A program made the translations under genes and the position numbers. The notes below the pieces were generated by a model. The model saw only the letters and a list, made by a program, of their open reading frames with translations, made no database searches and was not told the origin of the DNA. Below, piece by piece: positions 965 through 9,039 of a stretch of DNA of 64,000 nucleotides; positions within the stretch are counted from its first letter, which is position 1, and each line of letters begins with the position of its first letter. Source of the DNA: a bacterium EF100-94H03 bin56 (lineage in GTDB: Bacteria > Pseudomonadota > Alphaproteobacteria > SP197); assembly GCA_002238685.1 (NCBI GenBank), contig MPMV01000002.1:124001-188000 (forward strand), in the 5' to 3' direction.

Positions 965-2032
965 CTATTCAGCCGCCTTCACGAAGGCGCGTGAATTCGG
1001 AAACGCCGGCATCACCTCGTCGATGAACAGGCGCAACGAGGACTTCTGCAGTTCGAACGTCGGACCGGTCACGCGATAGAGGAACTTGTCGACGCCAAGG
1101 GCCTCGTAGCGGCGCAGCTTGGCAATCACCTCGTCGGGCGTGCCAAAGACGAGGTTGGTGCGCAGCATCTCGGGATCGTACTCGGCGACATTGTCGAGCG
1201 AGGCAAGATCGACCGCCTCGACGAAGCCGTTCTTCACCTCTCCGAGCTGCTTGAACAGGTTCTCGAACTGCACGCCGCCCCTCTGCACCGCCTCGACAAA
1301 GGGCCGCCAGCCATGTTCCTGGTCCTGGTAGACGGCAGCATGGCGCATCGTCAGGAATTGCGGCCGTGGAACGCCCGGGACCCTCGCCAGCGCATCCTCG
1401 AACTGCTGCCTGTACTTCTCGACCTCGCTGAAGGGGCGGGTCAGCGCCCAGGACATGATGTTGCACCCCTGGCTCAAGGCCCAGTCGTAGGTCGAGGGAT
1501 GGCGTGCCGCGATCCACAGGGGAGGATGGGGCTTCTGCAAGGGCTTGGGACAGGCGGTTGCCGAAGGAAAGGACCAGAATTCGCCGCGGTGCTCGTAGTC
1601 TCCGGCCCACAGGCCCTTGAGCACCGGCAGCATCTCCTGCATGTAGGCGACCCCCTTGTGCTGGTCCATGCCTCCCATCATGCGGTCGAATTCACGCTGA
1701 TAGGCGCCGCGGCCGATTCCGAACTCCACCCGTCCGCCCGACATGAGATCGAGCAGGCCGACTTCGCCGGCCACCTTGATCGGGTGCCAGTAGGGGGCCT
1801 GGACCACCGCGATGCCGAGGCGGATCTGGTCGGTGTTGGCGCCGAACCAGGCCAGAAGCTGGAAGGGATTGGGCGCGATCGTCATCTCGATCGCATGGTG
1901 TTCGGCCGCCCAGACAATCTCGAATCCCCCCGATTCGGCCATCTGCACCATGTCCATGGCGTGGCGTGCGACATCCCGCATGTCGACCGACGGGTTGTCG
2001 CGGGCGAGATCGATCGAAAGACTGAATTTCAT
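965..2032 (-). CDS. LLM-class (luciferase-like) flavin-dependent monooxygenase
   Basis: Bacterial-luciferase-like TIM barrel of about 355 residues, starting MKFSLSID. It shows the family landmarks AAEHH near residue 40, the VVQAPYWHP segment and GRVEFGIGRGAY near residue 100. Such enzymes use reduced flavin from a separate reductase to oxygenate organic substrates. The substrate cannot be read from sequence. The start at 2032 is preferred over one 24 bases upstream because GGGAGG lies just before it. It is the last gene of the leftward operon after the BKACE gene, 84 bases downstream of it. Confidence 0.85.
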   Translation of the reverse strand: MKFSLSIDLARDNPSVDMRDVARHAMDMVQMAESGGFEIVWAAEHHAIEMTIAPNPFQLLAWFGANTDQIRLGIAVVQAPYWHPIKVAGEVGLLDLMSGGRVEFGIGRGAYQREFDRMMGGMDQHKGVAYMQEMLPVLKGLWAGDYEHRGEFWSFPSATACPKPLQKPHPPLWIAARHPSTYDWALSQGCNIMSWALTRPFSEVEKYRQQFEDALARVPGVPRPQFLTMRHAAVYQDQEHGWRPFVEAVQRGGVQFENLFKQLGEVKNGFVEAVDLASLDNVAEYDPEMLRTNLVFGTPDEVIAKLRRYEALGVDKFLYRVTGPTFELQKSSLRLFIDEVMPAFPNSRAFVKAAE

Positions 2033-2116
2033 GGTGCCCTCCCATGTCGTTGACATCGAATACTACGCGAGGATCAATGCCGGTGATATCGCGGTGGCGA
2101 GGAGCTCCCCCAAGCC

Positions 2117-3001
2117 TCAGGCCGTGGCGAGACCGAGTTTCTGGCGCGCCTCGGCCGCGCCGACAACCCGCCCGCCCATCATCTCGATGATCCCGGCCGC
2201 CTTCTCGACGAGCTGGCCGTTGGTCGCCAGCACACCGCGCTTGAGATAGAGGTTGTCCTCGAGGCCGACCCGGGCATTGCCGCCCAGCAGCATTGCCTGG
2301 GCGACCATGGGCATCTGCATGCGGCTGATGCCGAACCCCGCCCAGTTGGCTCCATGCGGCAGGCAATCCGCCATGGTCATCATTGAGCGCGTGTCGGCCC
2401 CCGCACCCCAGGGAATGCCGAGACAGACCTGAAAGAGCGGCGGGTCCTCGATGAGGCCCTCGTTGTACATGGCGCCGGCGAGGCGGACCTGGCCGAGATC
2501 GAACACCTCGATCTCCGGCTTGACCCCCATCTCCCGGATGCGCGACGCCATGGTGCGGCACCAGGAAGCCGGGTTGACGTAAGTCTCGTTGCCGTCGCCG
2601 AAGTTGATGGTGCCGCAATCGAGAGAGCAGATCTCCGGGCGCAGGCGATCGACATGGCGCAGCCGTTCGAGCGGACCGACGATGTCACTGCCAGGGCCGG
2701 GGCGCGATGGATTGTCGTCATCGAGATTGAAGTCGCCGCCCATGCCCGCTGTCAGGTTGAGAATCACGTCCACGCCATCCTGCCTGATCAGATTGACGGT
2801 CTCCTCGAACAGGTCGGGATCCCGCGAGCCCTTGCCGGTCTCGGGATCACGCACATGGATGTGGGTGACCGCGGCGCCTGCATGGGCCGCCTCGATCGCC
2901 GCATCGGCGATCTGGCGCGGGGTCACCGGAACCTTGTCGCTCCGCGAAACCGTATCCCCGGCGCCGGTGACAGCACAGGTGATGATGACGTCCGTGTTCA
3001 T
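2117..3001 (-). CDS. BKACE family beta-keto acid cleavage enzyme, probable dehydrocarnitine:acetyl-CoA type
   Basis: Zn-dependent TIM-barrel enzyme of the 3-keto-5-aminohexanoate cleavage (BKACE) family, 294 aa. The metal-binding HIH (residues 47-49) and the LEDN segment near residue 230 are present. [11 protein letters not shown] at the N-terminus, [21 protein letters not shown] and LCLGIPWGA resemble, from memory, the dehydrocarnitine-cleaving (CdhC-like) subgroup, which turns 3-dehydrocarnitine plus acetyl-CoA into betainyl-CoA and acetoacetate. A carnitine-dehydrogenase-like gene lies directly upstream, which agrees. No betainyl-CoA thioesterase (CdhB) is visible nearby. Confidence 0.88.
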
Positions 3002-3036
3002 GGATGTTCCTCCAGGTCGATCAAGTGGCTGAATGG

Positions 3037-3990
3037 TTACAAACCGGCCGCGCGGCGGGCCTTGAGAATGCCGACAAGTCCCTCGTTCATCTTCGCCGAC
3101 AGCGTCCGGAAATCCTCTCCCGGGGCGGCCGCGTCACAACCGTCGATGAGGCGCCGTGCGAGATCGTCGGTGAGTTCGGGCGCATCGAGGCGGCTCCACG
3201 GAAACTTCAGTGCCGGACCGAACTGCTCCAGGCAATAGGCCATGCCGCCCTCGCCCCCACCGACATGGAACACCATGCACGGGCCCATGAGGGCCCAGCG
3301 AGGGCCCGGACCGTTGGTCACCGCCGTGTCGATCTGCTCCACTGTCGCCTCTCCGGCCGCGATCATGTGCAGGGCCTCGCGCCAGATCGCCTCCTGCAGC
3401 CGCGTGGCGATGAACCCGGGGACCTCGCGTTCCATGACAAGGGGGGCCTTGCCGACGTGGCGAAAGAACGCCGCCGTCCAGGCCACCACGTCCGGGGCCG
3501 TGCTGCGGCCGGCGACGATCTCGACCAGCGGCATGAGGTAGGGTGGATTGAAGGGGTGGCCGGTGACCGTGCGCTCCGGTGACGGACAGAGCGCCTGGAT
3601 GTCACTCATGGAAAGACCCGAGGTCGAGGAACACAGGACGACATCCGGTGGCGCCAGGCGGCCCAGATCGGCGTAGACCGCCTGTTTCACCTCGAGGACT
3701 TCCGGAACGCTCTCCTGCACGAAGTCGGCCCCGGCGACGGCAGCCGCGAGGTCCGTGGTGACATGCAACCGCCCGGGCGATGCGCCATCCGCGGTGCCGA
3801 GTTGCTCCAGGGCGCTCCAGGCCGTCTCCACCAGGGAGCGGAGTTTCTCCTCTTCTTTCGCCTCGAGAATCCAGGACGTGACGTCATGGCCCGTGGCCAG
3901 GAAAAACGCCGCCCAACCGGCGCCGATCGGTCCGGCGCCAAGGCAGGTGACGGTCGAGACGTCCTGTGGCTGTGGCCGGCCCATCGTCAT
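3037..3990 (-). CDS. 3-hydroxyacyl-CoA dehydrogenase family, probable L-carnitine dehydrogenase
   Basis: Single-domain NAD-dependent dehydrogenase of 317 aa. A Rossmann [13 protein letters not shown] motif lies at about residues 17-29, followed by the HFNPP-like [14 protein letters not shown] segment and the family's C-terminal helical domain. Length and the motif [15 protein letters not shown] match L-carnitine dehydrogenases (carnitine to 3-dehydrocarnitine), and the next gene encodes the expected dehydrocarnitine-cleaving enzyme. Its start overlaps the stop of the upstream hydratase by 4 bases (ATGA), so the two are translationally coupled. A different beta-hydroxy acid substrate remains possible. 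Confidence 0.82.
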
Positions 3991-4787
3991 CTGCCCAGGA
4001 AGACCGGCGAACGCCGTTCAACAAAGGCACTGATGCCTTCCCGGGCGTCATCGGAGGCCAGCATCCGTCGGTAGAGGGGGAGATCGGCGGAGCGCATGGC
4101 CCTGAAGGAGCCCTCGACGGTTTCTCCCTCGATGGCCCGCAGCACCTCCTTGACCGCTCCCATCGCGAGTGGCGCGCCAGCGGCGAGTCGTTCGCCCCAG
4201 TGGCGTGCCTTCGCCATGAGCTGGGCGGCAGGGACGACGGCGTTCACCAGGCCCAGCCGCAGTGCCTCGCCCGCCTTCATGCGGCGGCCGAGCAGCAGCA
4301 TTTCCATGGCGACGTTGGTCGGCAGGCGTCGTGGCAGGCGCTGCAGGGCCCCGGCATCCGGGACGATGCCAAGGGGCAGTTCGGGCAGGGCAAACTCCAC
4401 GTGGTCGGCAGCGATGACGAGATCGCAGGCGAGCGCAATCTCGAATCCACCACCGATGGCATGGCCGTTGAGGGCGGCGATCACCGGCTTGTCGAGATCC
4501 CACATCTCCGTGATGCCGGCGAAGCCGCCCAGCGAGGCATCTTCCGTTTCCCACCAGTTGTCGAGCTGCTGATCGCCACTCTCGAGGGCCTTGAGGTCCC
4601 AGCCAGCCGAGAACAGGCGGTCGCCGGACGCCGTGAGAATCGCCACCTTGAGGTCCGGATCATCACGAAAGGCGACGAAGGCCTCCCCCATGAGGCGGCT
4701 GGTGGCGCGGTCGATGGCGTTGACCCTTGGCCGGTCGATCGTGATTTCCAGCAACGCGCCGCGCCGCTCGACACCAATACCGCCCAT
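3987..4787 (-). CDS. Enoyl-CoA hydratase/isomerase family, CaiD-like (carnitinyl-CoA dehydratase type)
   Basis: Crotonase-fold protein of 266 aa, close in length to E. coli CaiD (261 aa). It shares the CaiD-like FSAGWDLKA oxyanion-hole segment near residue 60, the second loop GGGFEIALACD and LPELPLGIVPDAG containing the catalytic acidic region. CaiD hydrates crotonobetainyl-CoA to carnitinyl-CoA. No CaiB or CaiC partner is seen, so the substrate may be a related betaine or another acyl-CoA. It overlaps its neighbours by 4 bases on the downstream side and shares the stop/start ATGA with the HisA-like gene upstream. Confidence 0.82.
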   Translation of the reverse strand: MGGIGVERRGALLEITIDRPRVNAIDRATSRLMGEAFVAFRDDPDLKVAILTASGDRLFSAGWDLKALESGDQQLDNWWETEDASLGGFAGITEMWDLDKPVIAALNGHAIGGGFEIALACDLVIAADHVEFALPELPLGIVPDAGALQRLPRRLPTNVAMEMLLLGRRMKAGEALRLGLVNAVVPAAQLMAKARHWGERLAAGAPLAMGAVKEVLRAIEGETVEGSFRAMRSADLPLYRRMLASDDAREGISAFVERRSPVFLGR

Positions 4788-5545
4788 CAGATCAACCGCG
4801 CCGGCGTATAGGAGGCACGAGCGGTGCCAATGGCCTCGGCAAGATCGATGCGGCCAAGGAACAGTGCCCTGCCGATGATGCAGCCGCCGATATTCGGCAG
4901 GTATTTCAGCATCGAGACGTCGTCGATGCCGGTGATCGTGCCGCTCGAGACCACCGGCACATCGAGGACCTCACCCATGCGCATGGTCCGGGCCAGGCTG
5001 TTCTCCATTGGTTCCTTGTCGCGATCGAGATCGACAAAGACGATTTCCGAGATACCGGCCGCCGCCAGGCTCTTCGCCATCTCCGTCGCCGGGAAGGCGG
5101 TCTCCTCGCGCCACCCCTCGATGACCACCATGCCGTTACGCGCCGCCACCGTGGCAATGACGCGGTCCGGGTAGGCCGTGCAGGCATCGGTGACAAGATG
5201 CCGGTCCTTGACCGCTGCCGTCCCCAGACCGACGCGCCAGGCACCGTGCTCGAACCACCAGTGCACGGAACCGATGGAGCGGATGCCACCGGCAACCTGG
5301 ACCGGAATGGCCACGCTGTCGATGATCCGGCAGATCTGCTCGGCGTTGTGCCGGCCGCCCTGGAGTGTCCCGTCGACATCCACCACGTGAAGACAGTCCG
5401 CACCGGCGTCGGCGAACCGGCGGGCGGCATCCTCCGGGGAAAGGTCGAAGGGCTCGGGAGTTTGGTGACGGCCATCCACACGATTGACCGCCTTGCCTCC
5501 CATGATTTCGATGGTTGGGTAGATCTTCATGGTTTCGAACCGCAT
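4787..5545 (-). CDS. HisA-like (beta/alpha)8 barrel with altered catalytic residues
   Basis: Related to HisA (ProFAR isomerase): the two phosphate-binding loops GGIRS and GRALFLG and the overall length fit. Counting from MKIYPTIEI, the position of HisA Asp8 is Glu8, and the position of Asp127 (SLD in HisA) is Ala129 in TVAARNG. Both residues serve acid/base catalysis in HisA, so true ProFAR isomerase activity is doubtful. It sits in a catabolic operon, not a his operon. The start at 5545 (MRFETMKIYP) has GGAGA upstream; 5530 is the alternative. It probably binds a phosphorylated ligand. The reaction is unknown. Confidence 0.85.
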   Translation of the reverse strand: MRFETMKIYPTIEIMGGKAVNRVDGRHQTPEPFDLSPEDAARRFADAGADCLHVVDVDGTLQGGRHNAEQICRIIDSVAIPVQVAGGIRSIGSVHWWFEHGAWRVGLGTAAVKDRHLVTDACTAYPDRVIATVAARNGMVVIEGWREETAFPATEMAKSLAAAGISEIVFVDLDRDKEPMENSLARTMRMGEVLDVPVVSSGTITGIDDVSMLKYLPNIGGCIIGRALFLGRIDLAEAIGTARASYTPARLI

Positions 5546-5558
5546 CCGGCTGTCTCCA

Positions 5559-5990
5559 TCATAGGCGAGGATCGCCTCCCGGCGCGACTCGGGATGTCGC
5601 GTTCGGTGGCCTGAAGGCGATGACCTCGATCTCGACGCGAACGTCGACCAGCAACTCGGAGATGACCGCCGAGCGGACGGGCGGGTCGACCGGAAAGTAC
5701 TCCGCGTAGACGGCATTGAATCCGGGAAAATCGGCGCGCTCCGACAACCACACCATGGCCTTCACCACGTCGCCGAGATTGCAGCCGGCCTCCGCCAGGG
5801 TCTCGCGGATCGCCTCGATGACGACCCGGGTCTGCTCCTCGATGGTGCCATGGGTCATCGGCTTTCCGTCCTCAAGGGGCACCTGGCCGGTCAGGAACAC
5901 GAAATCCCCGGCCCGGATGGCGCGGGAGAGCGACAGGACCCGCCCGCCAATCGAGAGCGGCCCGCCGATCACCTGTTTCTTCGTCGTCAT
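5559..5990 (-). CDS. RidA/YjgF family protein
   Basis: Small trimeric RidA-fold protein of 143 aa. The family core is visible in FVFLTGQVPL, the middle segment EQTRVVIEAIRETLAEAG and the C-terminal RSAVISELLVDVRVEIEVIA, which contains the conserved Arg that binds carboxylates in active RidA members. RidA proteins hydrolyse reactive enamine/imine intermediates, so its place as first gene of a catabolic operon suggests that an imine or enamine arises in the pathway. The start at 5990 (MTTKKQV) has GGAAG just upstream. The HisA-like gene follows 13 bases downstream. Confidence 0.85.
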   Translation of the reverse strand: MTTKKQVIGGPLSIGGRVLSLSRAIRAGDFVFLTGQVPLEDGKPMTHGTIEEQTRVVIEAIRETLAEAGCNLGDVVKAMVWLSERADFPGFNAVYAEYFPVDPPVRSAVISELLVDVRVEIEVIAFRPPNATSRVAPGGDPRL

Positions 5991-6019
5991 CTTCCGGATC
6001 TTCCCAGTTGTGGCGGGTG

Positions 6020-6091: not shown

Positions 6092-7576
6092 ATGGAAGAA
6101 CTCAGGCACTACCGCATGCTGATCGACGGCGCATGGGTCGATTCCGGAGACGGCGGCACCTTCGACAGCATCAATCCGACGACCGGCAAGGCCTGGGCCA
6201 CGGTCGCCGCAGCCACCGGGGAAGATGTCGACCGGGCCGTCCAGGCGGCACATCGCGCCTTCACCAGCGGTCCCTGGGCGACCATGCTGCCGACACAGCG
6301 GGGCCGTTTGTTGCGCAATCTTGCCGGTCTGCTGGCCGAGCGGTCGGAGGATCTGGGCCGGACCGAGTGCATCGATACCGGAAAGATGTTCAAGGAGACG
6401 CGCTGGCAGGCGCGCTACATCGCCGAGTTCTTTCATTTCTATGCGGGCCTCGCCGACAAGGTGACCGGCGAGACCCTGCCCATCGACCGCCACGACATGC
6501 TCACCATCACCACACGCGAACCCCTGGGCGTGGTTGCCGCCGTCGTGCCGTGGAACAGCCAGCTCTTTCTCGTCGCGGTGAAGATCGGACCGGCCCTTGC
6601 AGCCGGCAACACCGTCGTCCTGAAGGCCAGCGAACACGCTTCGGCCGCCATGCTGGAGTTTGCCGAACTCGCCATGGAGGCCGGATTCCCGCCCGGCGTG
6701 ATCAACGTCGTCACCGGCCATGGCGAGCCCTGCGGACGCACCCTCACCACCCATCCCCTGGTGGCGCGCATCAGTTTCACGGGCGGACCGGCAACGGCCC
6801 GTCATGTCGTCAGGAACTCCGCCGACAATTTCGCCGAAGTCTCTCTCGAACTGGGAGGCAAGTCTCCCGTCATCGTGTTCGGCGATGCCGACATCGAGAG
6901 TGCGGTCAATGGTTCCCTTGCCGGCATCTTCGGCGCCAGCGGGCAGAGCTGTGTCGCCGGCAGCCGGATCTACCTCCACGAGTCGATCCACGATGCCTTC
7001 GTCGAACGCCTGGTGGCGCGGGCCGGCGACATCCGCATCGGCGATCCTCTGGCCGAAGAGACCCAGATGGGGCCGCTCTGCACCATTGCCCAGCTCGAGG
7101 GGTGCGAGCGCCAGGTGGCCCGTGCCGTGGAGGAAGGAGGCACCCTTCTCACCGGCGGCAAGCGTCCGGACCATCCCGATACAGGGTGGTTTTTCGAGCC
7201 GACAATCGTGTCCTGCCCTGACCAGGGAATGGAGATTGTCGATACCGAGATGTTCGGACCCGTGCTCTCGGTGCTGCGCTTCAGCGAAGAAGACGAGGTC
7301 GTGGCCCTCGCCAACGACACGCGCTACGGGTTGGCAGCCGGGGTCTTCACACGGGATCTTGCACGCGCCCTGCGTGTCCAGAAACGGATTCGCGCCGGTA
7401 TCGTGTGGGTCAACACCTATCGCGTGGTGTCGCCCATCGCCGAGTTTGGCGGCTTCAAGGACTCAGGCTATGGGCGCGAATCGGGCGCCCAGGCGATCTA
7501 CGACTATACCCGGCCCAAGACCGTTTGGATCAACACTTCGGATGAGCCGATGGACAACCCCTTCGTCATGCGATAG
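6092..7576 (+). CDS. NAD(P)-dependent aldehyde dehydrogenase
   Basis: Class 1/2-type aldehyde dehydrogenase of 494 aa. The catalytic residues are in place: Asn155 (PWNSQ), Glu253 (LELGGK) and Cys287 in GQSCVAG. The cofactor-binding KASEHAS and FTGGPATAR segments are also present. It oxidises an aldehyde to a carboxylate; the substrate cannot be deduced. The start at 6092 (MEELRHY) follows a GGGG-rich ribosome site; an in-frame ATG-less extension upstream looks non-coding. It is the first gene of the rightward operon, 11 bases ahead of the HAL-like gene and divergent from RidA. Confidence 0.9.
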   Translation: MEELRHYRMLIDGAWVDSGDGGTFDSINPTTGKAWATVAAATGEDVDRAVQAAHRAFTSGPWATMLPTQRGRLLRNLAGLLAERSEDLGRTECIDTGKMFKETRWQARYIAEFFHFYAGLADKVTGETLPIDRHDMLTITTREPLGVVAAVVPWNSQLFLVAVKIGPALAAGNTVVLKASEHASAAMLEFAELAMEAGFPPGVINVVTGHGEPCGRTLTTHPLVARISFTGGPATARHVVRNSADNFAEVSLELGGKSPVIVFGDADIESAVNGSLAGIFGASGQSCVAGSRIYLHESIHDAFVERLVARAGDIRIGDPLAEETQMGPLCTIAQLEGCERQVARAVEEGGTLLTGGKRPDHPDTGWFFEPTIVSCPDQGMEIVDTEMFGPVLSVLRFSEEDEVVALANDTRYGLAAGVFTRDLARALRVQKRIRAGIVWVNTYRVVSPIAEFGGFKDSGYGRESGAQAIYDYTRPKTVWINTSDEPMDNPFVMR

Positions 7577-7587
7577 GCGCGCATGTC

Positions 7588-9039
7588 ATGACCATCGTCA
7601 TCACCGGCCGCAGCGATCTCACTCTGGAAAACGCCCACCGTGTGGTCTGGGACCGGGAAGGCGTCGAGATCGGCGCCGAGGCCCTTTCCGCCATGCAGGC
7701 CGGCCGCAAGAGACTGATGCGCATCCTCGAGCATGACCCCGACATCACAATCTACGGGGTTACGACCGGCGCCGGCCAGATGGCGAGACAGAAGATCAGG
7801 CCGGAGGATCGCGGCCGCCATGCCCGCATGTCGCCGACCGGCGCCGCCGCATCGTGGGGCGATCCCCTGCCCGACCGGGTGGTGCGTCTCATCATCCTGG
7901 CGCGCCTGACCAATTTCATCGAGGGCCATGCGGCCGTCTCACCGGAGATTGCCCAGGGTGTCGCGGCGATGCTCTCGCAGGAAAGCGTGCCCGTGATCCC
8001 GGCGCGGGGTCAGGGTGGCGCCGGCGAAATTCTCTCGCTCAGCCACCTCTTTGCACCCCTCGTCGAATCGGTCGGCGCCGATGTCAAGGATGTCATGTGC
8101 CTCGTCAACGGTTCGCCATCGGCGACCGGTCTCGTCACCGATGCCGCATTGACGGCCGAAGCCCGTCTCGATCTCGCAGCCCGTGTCTTCGCGCTTTCGT
8201 TCGAGGCATTCAATGCGCCCCTCGGCCACCTCGCCGGGGCGCTCGAGGATTACTGGAACAATCCCTGCGACGCCTGGGCCCTCAAGACCATGCGAACACT
8301 CATCGACGGTGGCCATGGCGGCGGCCGCCGGCCCTACCAGGCACCGGTGAGCTTCCGAATCGCGCCACGCATGCTCGGTCAGGCCCGGCGTGCCGTCGAC
8401 CTGGTGCGCGACGTGGCCGGTGAATCCCTCCAGGCCGTGACCGACAATCCGGTGTGGATCGATGAATGCGACGAGGACCATCCCTTCGGACAGTTCGTGT
8501 CGACCGGTGGATACCACAATCCCCACGCGGTTCTTGCCATGGATGCCCTGACGGCGACATGCGCCAATCTCTGTGTCCTTGCCGAACGCCACGGCGCCAA
8601 ACTGCTTGACGGCCGTGTCTCCCTGCTGCCAGACCAGCTGATCGACCCAGGGCACGAAGGCGGCATCCGGCGGGGATACATGGGATGCCTGCCCATGGCG
8701 CAGACCGGTTACGAGGAAGAGGCGCGCTATCACGCCCAGGCCACCCTGCTGCCGGGCAGCGAATCGGGGGGATTCGGACAGAATGATGTGGCGAGCCCGG
8801 TGTTCCTCGCCTGGACCAAGCTGCAGCGCGCCAGCGAATGCCTCGATCTCGCGCTCGCCAGTCTCGCACCCATTGCCGTGAGAGCCCTGGATGTCACCGG
8901 GCGCCGGATCCCCGGACCGCTGCGCGGAATTGAAGAGACCGTGCGCAGCGTGTTCCCGGATCTCGAAGAACGGCGCGCCTTCGGCCCCCTGGTGGCCGAC
9001 GTCGCCACGGCGTTCCGTGCCACCATTCATCCTTCCTGA
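7588..9039 (+). CDS. Aromatic amino acid lyase (HAL/PAL) family protein lacking the MIO triad
   Basis: A 483-aa homologue of histidine ammonia-lyase. The loop YGVTTGAG holds Tyr56, equivalent to HAL Tyr53, and LVNGSPSAT follows the core. At the position of the cofactor-forming Ala-Ser-Gly (HAL 142-144) the sequence reads GGAGEILSLSH: residues 145-147 are Ala-Gly-Glu, with the serine absent. The MIO electrophile therefore cannot form in the usual way. The frame is intact through this site. Ergothionases, which eliminate trimethylamine rather than ammonia, are to my knowledge HAL-related. With carnitine-type neighbours, a betaine lyase is a reasonable guess but is unproven. Confidence 0.85.
   Translation: MTIVITGRSDLTLENAHRVVWDREGVEIGAEALSAMQAGRKRLMRILEHDPDITIYGVTTGAGQMARQKIRPEDRGRHARMSPTGAAASWGDPLPDRVVRLIILARLTNFIEGHAAVSPEIAQGVAAMLSQESVPVIPARGQGGAGEILSLSHLFAPLVESVGADVKDVMCLVNGSPSATGLVTDAALTAEARLDLAARVFALSFEAFNAPLGHLAGALEDYWNNPCDAWALKTMRTLIDGGHGGGRRPYQAPVSFRIAPRMLGQARRAVDLVRDVAGESLQAVTDNPVWIDECDEDHPFGQFVSTGGYHNPHAVLAMDALTATCANLCVLAERHGAKLLDGRVSLLPDQLIDPGHEGGIRRGYMGCLPMAQTGYEEEARYHAQATLLPGSESGGFGQNDVASPVFLAWTKLQRASECLDLALASLAPIAVRALDVTGRRIPGPLRGIEETVRSVFPDLEERRAFGPLVADVATAFRATIHPS

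Follow-up and report, generated by a model that had tools for sequence, protein, structure and literature searches.

The window, the entire stretch of 64,000 nucleotides that we analysed, comes from an alphaproteobacterial genome (G000, 98% complete) and contains, on the plus strand, an open ORF (7588..9039, ATG to TGA) that encodes a 483-residue protein, hereafter P0001. The open reading frame, the Pfam match, the family alignment and an AlphaFold2 (AF2) model together identify P0001 as a lyase of the histidine ammonia-lyase (HAL) fold that lacks the MIO triad. The protein matches the Pfam domain Lyase_aromatic (PF00221) with 216.6 bits (cut-off 27.3), and its score against the HutH equivalog TIGR01225, 156 bits, is below the cut-off of 539.

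The gene for an aldehyde dehydrogenase of the betaine-aldehyde dehydrogenase type (6092..7576, plus strand; 513 bits to TIGR01804, cut-off 669) ends 11 bp upstream of the lyase gene, and the two are likely cotranscribed. We placed the start of this gene, by inference, at the ATG at 6092, whereas the mechanical ORF begins at 6008. A divergent cluster of five genes, identified by profile matches, occupies 965..5716 of the minus strand: a luciferase-like monooxygenase (965-2056), BKACE (2117-3001), a carnitine-dehydrogenase-like gene (3037-3990), a crotonobetainyl-CoA-hydratase-like gene (3987-4787) and a HisA-like gene (4787-5716; 180 bits, cut-off 243). The latter, the last gene of the carnitine-type cluster, scores below the equivalog level and possibly does not function in histidine biosynthesis.

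The proximity of the aldehyde dehydrogenase and of the divergent BKACE, carnitine-dehydrogenase-like and crotonobetainyl-CoA-hydratase-like genes would fit an activity of P0001 on a compound of the carnitine pathway, and an earlier note on this DNA took the carnitine-type genes as support for a betaine substrate. However, every score of these genes and of the aldehyde dehydrogenase is below the curated NCBIfam cut-off, and their linkage to the lyase is restricted to the clade in which the lyase is 93-94% identical, being absent at about 27 other orthologue loci. Being lineage-specific and below the cut-offs, the carnitine-type neighbours were discarded as a basis for the choice of substrate, and the divergent cluster is probably dispensable for the function of the lyase. 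Furthermore, carnitine is not an alpha-amino-acid betaine, the kind of compound that the conserved Arg257/Tyr56 arrangement of the fold suits, so that a carnitine-pathway substrate is very unlikely; the betaine part of the argument stands, via the neighbours of the orthologues described below. Beside P0001 itself, there are no hut, betaine-transporter or trimethylamine-monooxygenase genes, and neither thiourocanate hydratase nor thiohydantoin desulfurase is encoded around it. The genome carries an ordinary HutH, and a search of it yielded no trimethylamine-monooxygenase match and no thiohydantoin desulfurase above the cut-off (best score, 116 bits).

Loss of the MIO triad

The loop codons for residues 141-153 of P0001 (8008..8046, plus strand) encode GQGGAGEILSLSH in place of GSVGASGDLAPLAH in HAL. 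In an alignment anchored on the following helix, one triad residue is deleted and Ser143 is gone, so that the loop (GQGGAGEI) is one residue shorter than that of HAL, and Gly146-Glu147 of P0001 correspond to Gly144-Asp145 of HAL. Thus, the loss of Ala-Ser-Gly proposed in the earlier note is borne out, although the register given there, with Ala145-Gly146-Glu147 at HAL positions 142-144, was off by one. No Ala-Ser-Gly is present anywhere else in the complete 483-residue translation, and, as that note held, MIO could not form in the known way; the cofactor is almost certainly absent from P0001. Contrary to the same note, the overall length of the protein is not retained: P0001 has 483 residues compared to about 509 in HAL, having lost, apart from the loop residue, some 23 residues directly after the loop.

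Across 82 aligned family members, Gly146, Glu147 and Asp400 (codon 8785..8787, plus strand; HAL Asp415) are invariant. Four more active-site residues are 99% conserved: Tyr56 (7753..7755, plus; HAL Tyr53, the presumed catalytic base, correctly noted as retained), Asn174 (8107..8109, plus; HAL Asn195), Gln251 (HAL Gln277) and Arg257 (8356..8358, plus; HAL Arg283, which binds the carboxylate in HAL). By contrast, Ser143, His83, Tyr280 and Glu414 of HAL are replaced or lost in the family; Asp400 of P0001 is preceded by Asn399, where HAL has Glu414 and ergothionase has Glu411. Given that Gly146, Glu147 and Asp400 are the same in all 82 members, the loss of the triad reflects neither chance, nor an assembly error, nor decay. 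The loss of the cofactor along with several substrate-binding residues could indicate a degenerate or non-enzymatic HAL homologue, but the other active-site residues are strictly conserved in the 82 sequences, metabolic gene contexts recur and the paralogues have expanded greatly, which makes this the least credible of the explanations considered here.

Phylogeny, fold and distribution of the family

In a tree of 50 sequences, from which the loop columns were left out, the P0001 family forms a single branch (support 100/100) apart from HutH, and the ergothionases, together with two related groups in which the triad is not intact, form a separate branch (99/96). The placement of P0001 inside HutH, raised in the earlier note as the outcome that would count against its reading, was not obtained: grouping of the family with the HutH core was rejected by the AU test (p = 0.01). 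A joint clade of the family with the ergothionases was not rejected (p = 0.12), although the best tree separates the two. Given the latter result, MIO may have been lost either once, in a common MIO-less ancestor with the ergothionases, or several times.

The AF2 model of P0001 (pLDDT 90) has the full-length HAL fold. The best PDB match of this model (Foldseek, VIA) is the ergothionase 6s7j (Z 37.4), which is tied with a tyrosine aminomutase (Z 37.0), whereas HAL scores about one unit lower (36.3); in the VIA comparisons with HAL/TAM, Z values were 36-37 over approximately 463 residues. Modelling, a check called for at the outset, gives a HAL-type fold, with the top match shared between ergothionase and MIO enzymes. 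A short-fragment search of the PDB returned no match.

Members of the family, where measured, are 34-94% identical to P0001 and come from alphaproteobacterial metagenome bins, rhizobia and two Granulosicoccaceae bins; the close relatives of the P0001 genome are metagenome-assembled Rhodospirillales-type and unclassified alphaproteobacteria. In a survey of Alphaproteobacteria, the family was present in 17 of the 385 genomes. Viral contigs searched for relatives of the lyase contained none.

A large expansion was found in a 2.7 Mb alphaproteobacterial genome (G100) that encodes about 24 divergent family members, some arranged in tandem, with runs of five and of six genes, and others scattered (L115, L116, L193-L201); the 11 paralogues that were compared are 39-62% identical. 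One of these (L200) contains a literal Ala-Ser-Gly within the shortened loop (GQDASGE), so that, judging from the sequence, MIO might conceivably form in this protein alone among the G100 paralogues. A GMGMDGE-type loop is present in two more lyases of the same genome (L198).

Gene neighbourhoods of the close orthologues

Many of the neighbouring ORFs in an initial clustering matched nothing in Pfam and probably represent shadow ORFs antisense to GC-rich genes; the neighbours were therefore re-checked by homology and codon-position GC. Among the orthologues with 67-74% identity, a HutU homologue lies directly upstream of the lyase at L042, L055, L056, L066 and L118, which amount to four independent loci because L055 and L118 (G756 and G377) are the same, with identical coordinates. 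The three HutU proteins that were scored reach 944-946 bits (cut-off 375), compared to 701-719 bits with two thiourocanate-hydratase models. HutU is preceded by a HutC-like gene (273 bits in L055, cut-off 220), and L066 additionally encodes HutI (468 bits, cut-off 298) and an N-formylglutamate amidohydrolase. No other, MIO-type Lyase_aromatic gene was found in G377 (98% complete), G755, G757 or G758; G755 and G758 encode HutI, which was not found in G377 or G757.

A second type of neighbourhood is represented by L049, L052 and L058, where an OpuAC glycine-betaine-type binding protein is encoded just upstream of the lyase on the same strand, with a divergent transporter ATPase and, in L049 and L052, a permease beyond it. 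In L052 and L058, a gene that converges on the lyase from downstream matches, with 769 bits, the flavin monooxygenase 5ipy, a trimethylamine monooxygenase of Roseovarius; a further match, 6kbw, carries the PDB name trimethylamine monooxygenase. No single relative or locus combines the hut, betaine-transporter and trimethylamine-monooxygenase genes. The lyase-bearing genomes G301 (99% complete) and G762 encode neither HutU nor HutI, so that urocanate cannot feed the Hut pathway there. At most orthologue loci, the neighbours are variable and uninformative; the Flp-pilus, ATP-grasp and TauE genes that are common to some of these were judged to be unrelated.

The occupation of the HutH position in hut loci, in genomes without an MIO-type HutH, is what would be expected of an MIO-independent histidine ammonia-lyase that replaced HutH. 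Without MIO, however, ammonia is a poor leaving group, and the histidine-binding residues of HAL are lost; other orthologues adjoin betaine transporters and trimethylamine monooxygenase, G377 and G757 lack HutI, and P0001 coexists with a normal HutH in its own genome. Such a replacement is accordingly improbable.

Distant members and other MIO-less lyases

Two distant members of the family hold the lyase slot of ergothioneine-type clusters. In R. jaguaris (L087), the lyase gene is located between UbiX/UbiD/ErtE/ErtD and an OpuC-type betaine transporter, with ErtD (760 bits) and ErtE (576 bits) both scoring above the cut-offs. In G100 (L115), the run of five lyases follows genes for an S-methyl-thiourocanate hydratase (891 bits, cut-off 880) and a homologue of S-methyl-thiohydantoin desulfurase (409 bits, below the cut-off of 450); L115 is the only family locus at which linked genes of these two types were encountered.

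These two clusters are compatible with P0001 being a functional ergothionase that converts ergothioneine (or an S-methyl or sulfonate form) to trimethylamine and a thiourocanate, as are the best structural match, the ergothionase loop that is likewise one residue shorter than that of HAL, and the AU test, which keeps the joint clade (p = 0.12). Against this, P0001 is only 17-20% identical to ergothionases; His83, Lys383 and Glu411 of the T. denticola ergothionase correspond to Ala86, Met370 and Asn399; the partner hydratase in the P0001 clade scores as HutU rather than as thiourocanate hydratase; and the P0001 genome lacks a thiohydantoin desulfurase above the cut-off. Ergothionase activity of P0001 is therefore unlikely, if somewhat less so than the replacement of HutH, and P0001 seems to belong not to the ergothionases, which had been invoked as a precedent, but to a separate clade of HAL-fold lyases that lack MIO.

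A UbiD decarboxylase is encoded beside MIO-less lyases at nine loci (L069-L073, L077, L087, L088 and L110), in some cases with UbiX, and a UbiD gene is also present within the ergothioneine-type cluster of Thalassospira marina (L158). In one genome (G259; L203, L204), there are at least five ergothionase-like paralogues, about 600 residues long, whose loops are of the GEGD/GEAD type. The P0001 genome itself encodes a third HAL-fold protein (G000:C92:145155-146621; L084, L152) with the loop GSIGASDLAL, in which Gly144 is missing; it groups beside the ergothionases in the tree and may be another MIO-less lyase.

Proposed reaction and substrate

From the results computed on the triad loss, the conserved residues, the clade, the fold and the gene contexts of the relatives, we propose, with a slight preference over all other readings combined, that P0001 removes trimethylamine from an alpha-trimethylammonium amino acid by a 1,2-elimination that needs no electrophilic cofactor, the likeliest substrate being hercynine (N,N,N-trimethylhistidine), with urocanate as the product. 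Arg257 would hold the carboxylate of the substrate; Tyr56, together with Glu147 and/or Asp400, would take the beta-proton; and the N(CH3)3+ group would depart as trimethylamine. Because this leaving group is permanently charged, the activation of the amine by MIO, as in HAL, would not be needed. In P0001 and its orthologues of about 70% identity, the urocanate produced from hercynine would be passed to HutU.

What speaks for a betaine is the presence, beside the orthologues, of hut genes and of genes for betaine transporters and trimethylamine monooxygenase, not the carnitine-type genes. One set of loci combines an importer, the lyase and trimethylamine oxidation, and another contains urocanate hydratase, which together point to the conversion of hercynine to urocanate and trimethylamine. 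The elimination of a trimethylammonium group suggested in the earlier note is, accordingly, the best-supported chemistry given the gene contexts of the relatives, and trimethylamine is probably the leaving group; the chances that the substrate is hercynine appear about even. The activating thione of ergothioneine is missing from hercynine, which makes a cofactor-free elimination chemically harder. With the imidazole-binding His83 and Glu414 of HAL lost, the ring would need to be bound differently. The absence of the supporting genes beside P0001, the ordinary HutH and the lack of a trimethylamine-monooxygenase match in its genome, and the genomes G301 and G762 also speak against the proposal.

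More tentatively, the clade might have radiated into HAL-fold lyases that need no cofactor and act on many different amino-acid betaines, as the roughly 24 divergent copies in G100 would suggest; in some genomes, a member would replace HutH, and the hut loci would run on hercynine, with trimethylamine rather than ammonia being released, a scenario that we regard as possible but doubtful.

Our literature search found no described hercynine lyase, nor any described enzyme for the proposed reaction. If the proposal is correct, P0001 would be a first candidate enzyme for the direct breakdown of hercynine and would represent a second HAL-fold route without a self-made cofactor, besides ergothionase; it would also reveal a new way in which microbes in sponge and marine settings release trimethylamine. 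Where a hut-like locus lacks a canonical HutH, it might then not serve plain histidine, and several lineages labelled histidine ammonia-lyase would be unable to make MIO.

Comparison with known enzymes

Ergothionase (ergothioneine trimethylamine-lyase; T. denticola, 6s7j/6s7q, ErtA-type) resembles P0001 in having the HAL fold without MIO and, in the T. denticola enzyme, a loop that, as read from the alignment, is SSIGEGDITTLSH, one residue shorter than in HAL; the equivalents of its Tyr53 and Arg280 are kept in P0001. The two nevertheless fall into separate clades; the ergothionase residues His83, Lys383 and Glu411, which are common to the three ergothionase-type sequences compared, have no conserved counterparts in the P0001 family, and some 23 residues after the loop are missing in P0001. 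Moreover, the hydratase linked to the close orthologues of P0001 is HutU and not thiourocanate hydratase.

HutH (P. putida, 1b8f/1gkm) shares with P0001 the fold and the residues Tyr53, Asn195, Gln277 and Arg283, and its position beside HutU is taken by the lyase in four relatives of P0001. The identity between the two is, however, only about 22%, and P0001 lacks Ala-Ser-Gly, and apparently MIO, as well as His83, Tyr280 and Glu414.

A third point of comparison is the lyase encoded on pAt of A. tumefaciens Ach5 (WP_038497112; L156:25230-26723), located in an ergothioneine-type cluster with neighbouring genes for urocanate hydratase, DUF917 and a glycine-betaine transporter. This gene is annotated as hutH, likely a misannotation, and has lost the ASG-D stretch. 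Like P0001, the protein has the HAL fold without the MIO triad, but it belongs to another lineage, with a different loop (GSVGY---LTH) and 20% identity to P0001.
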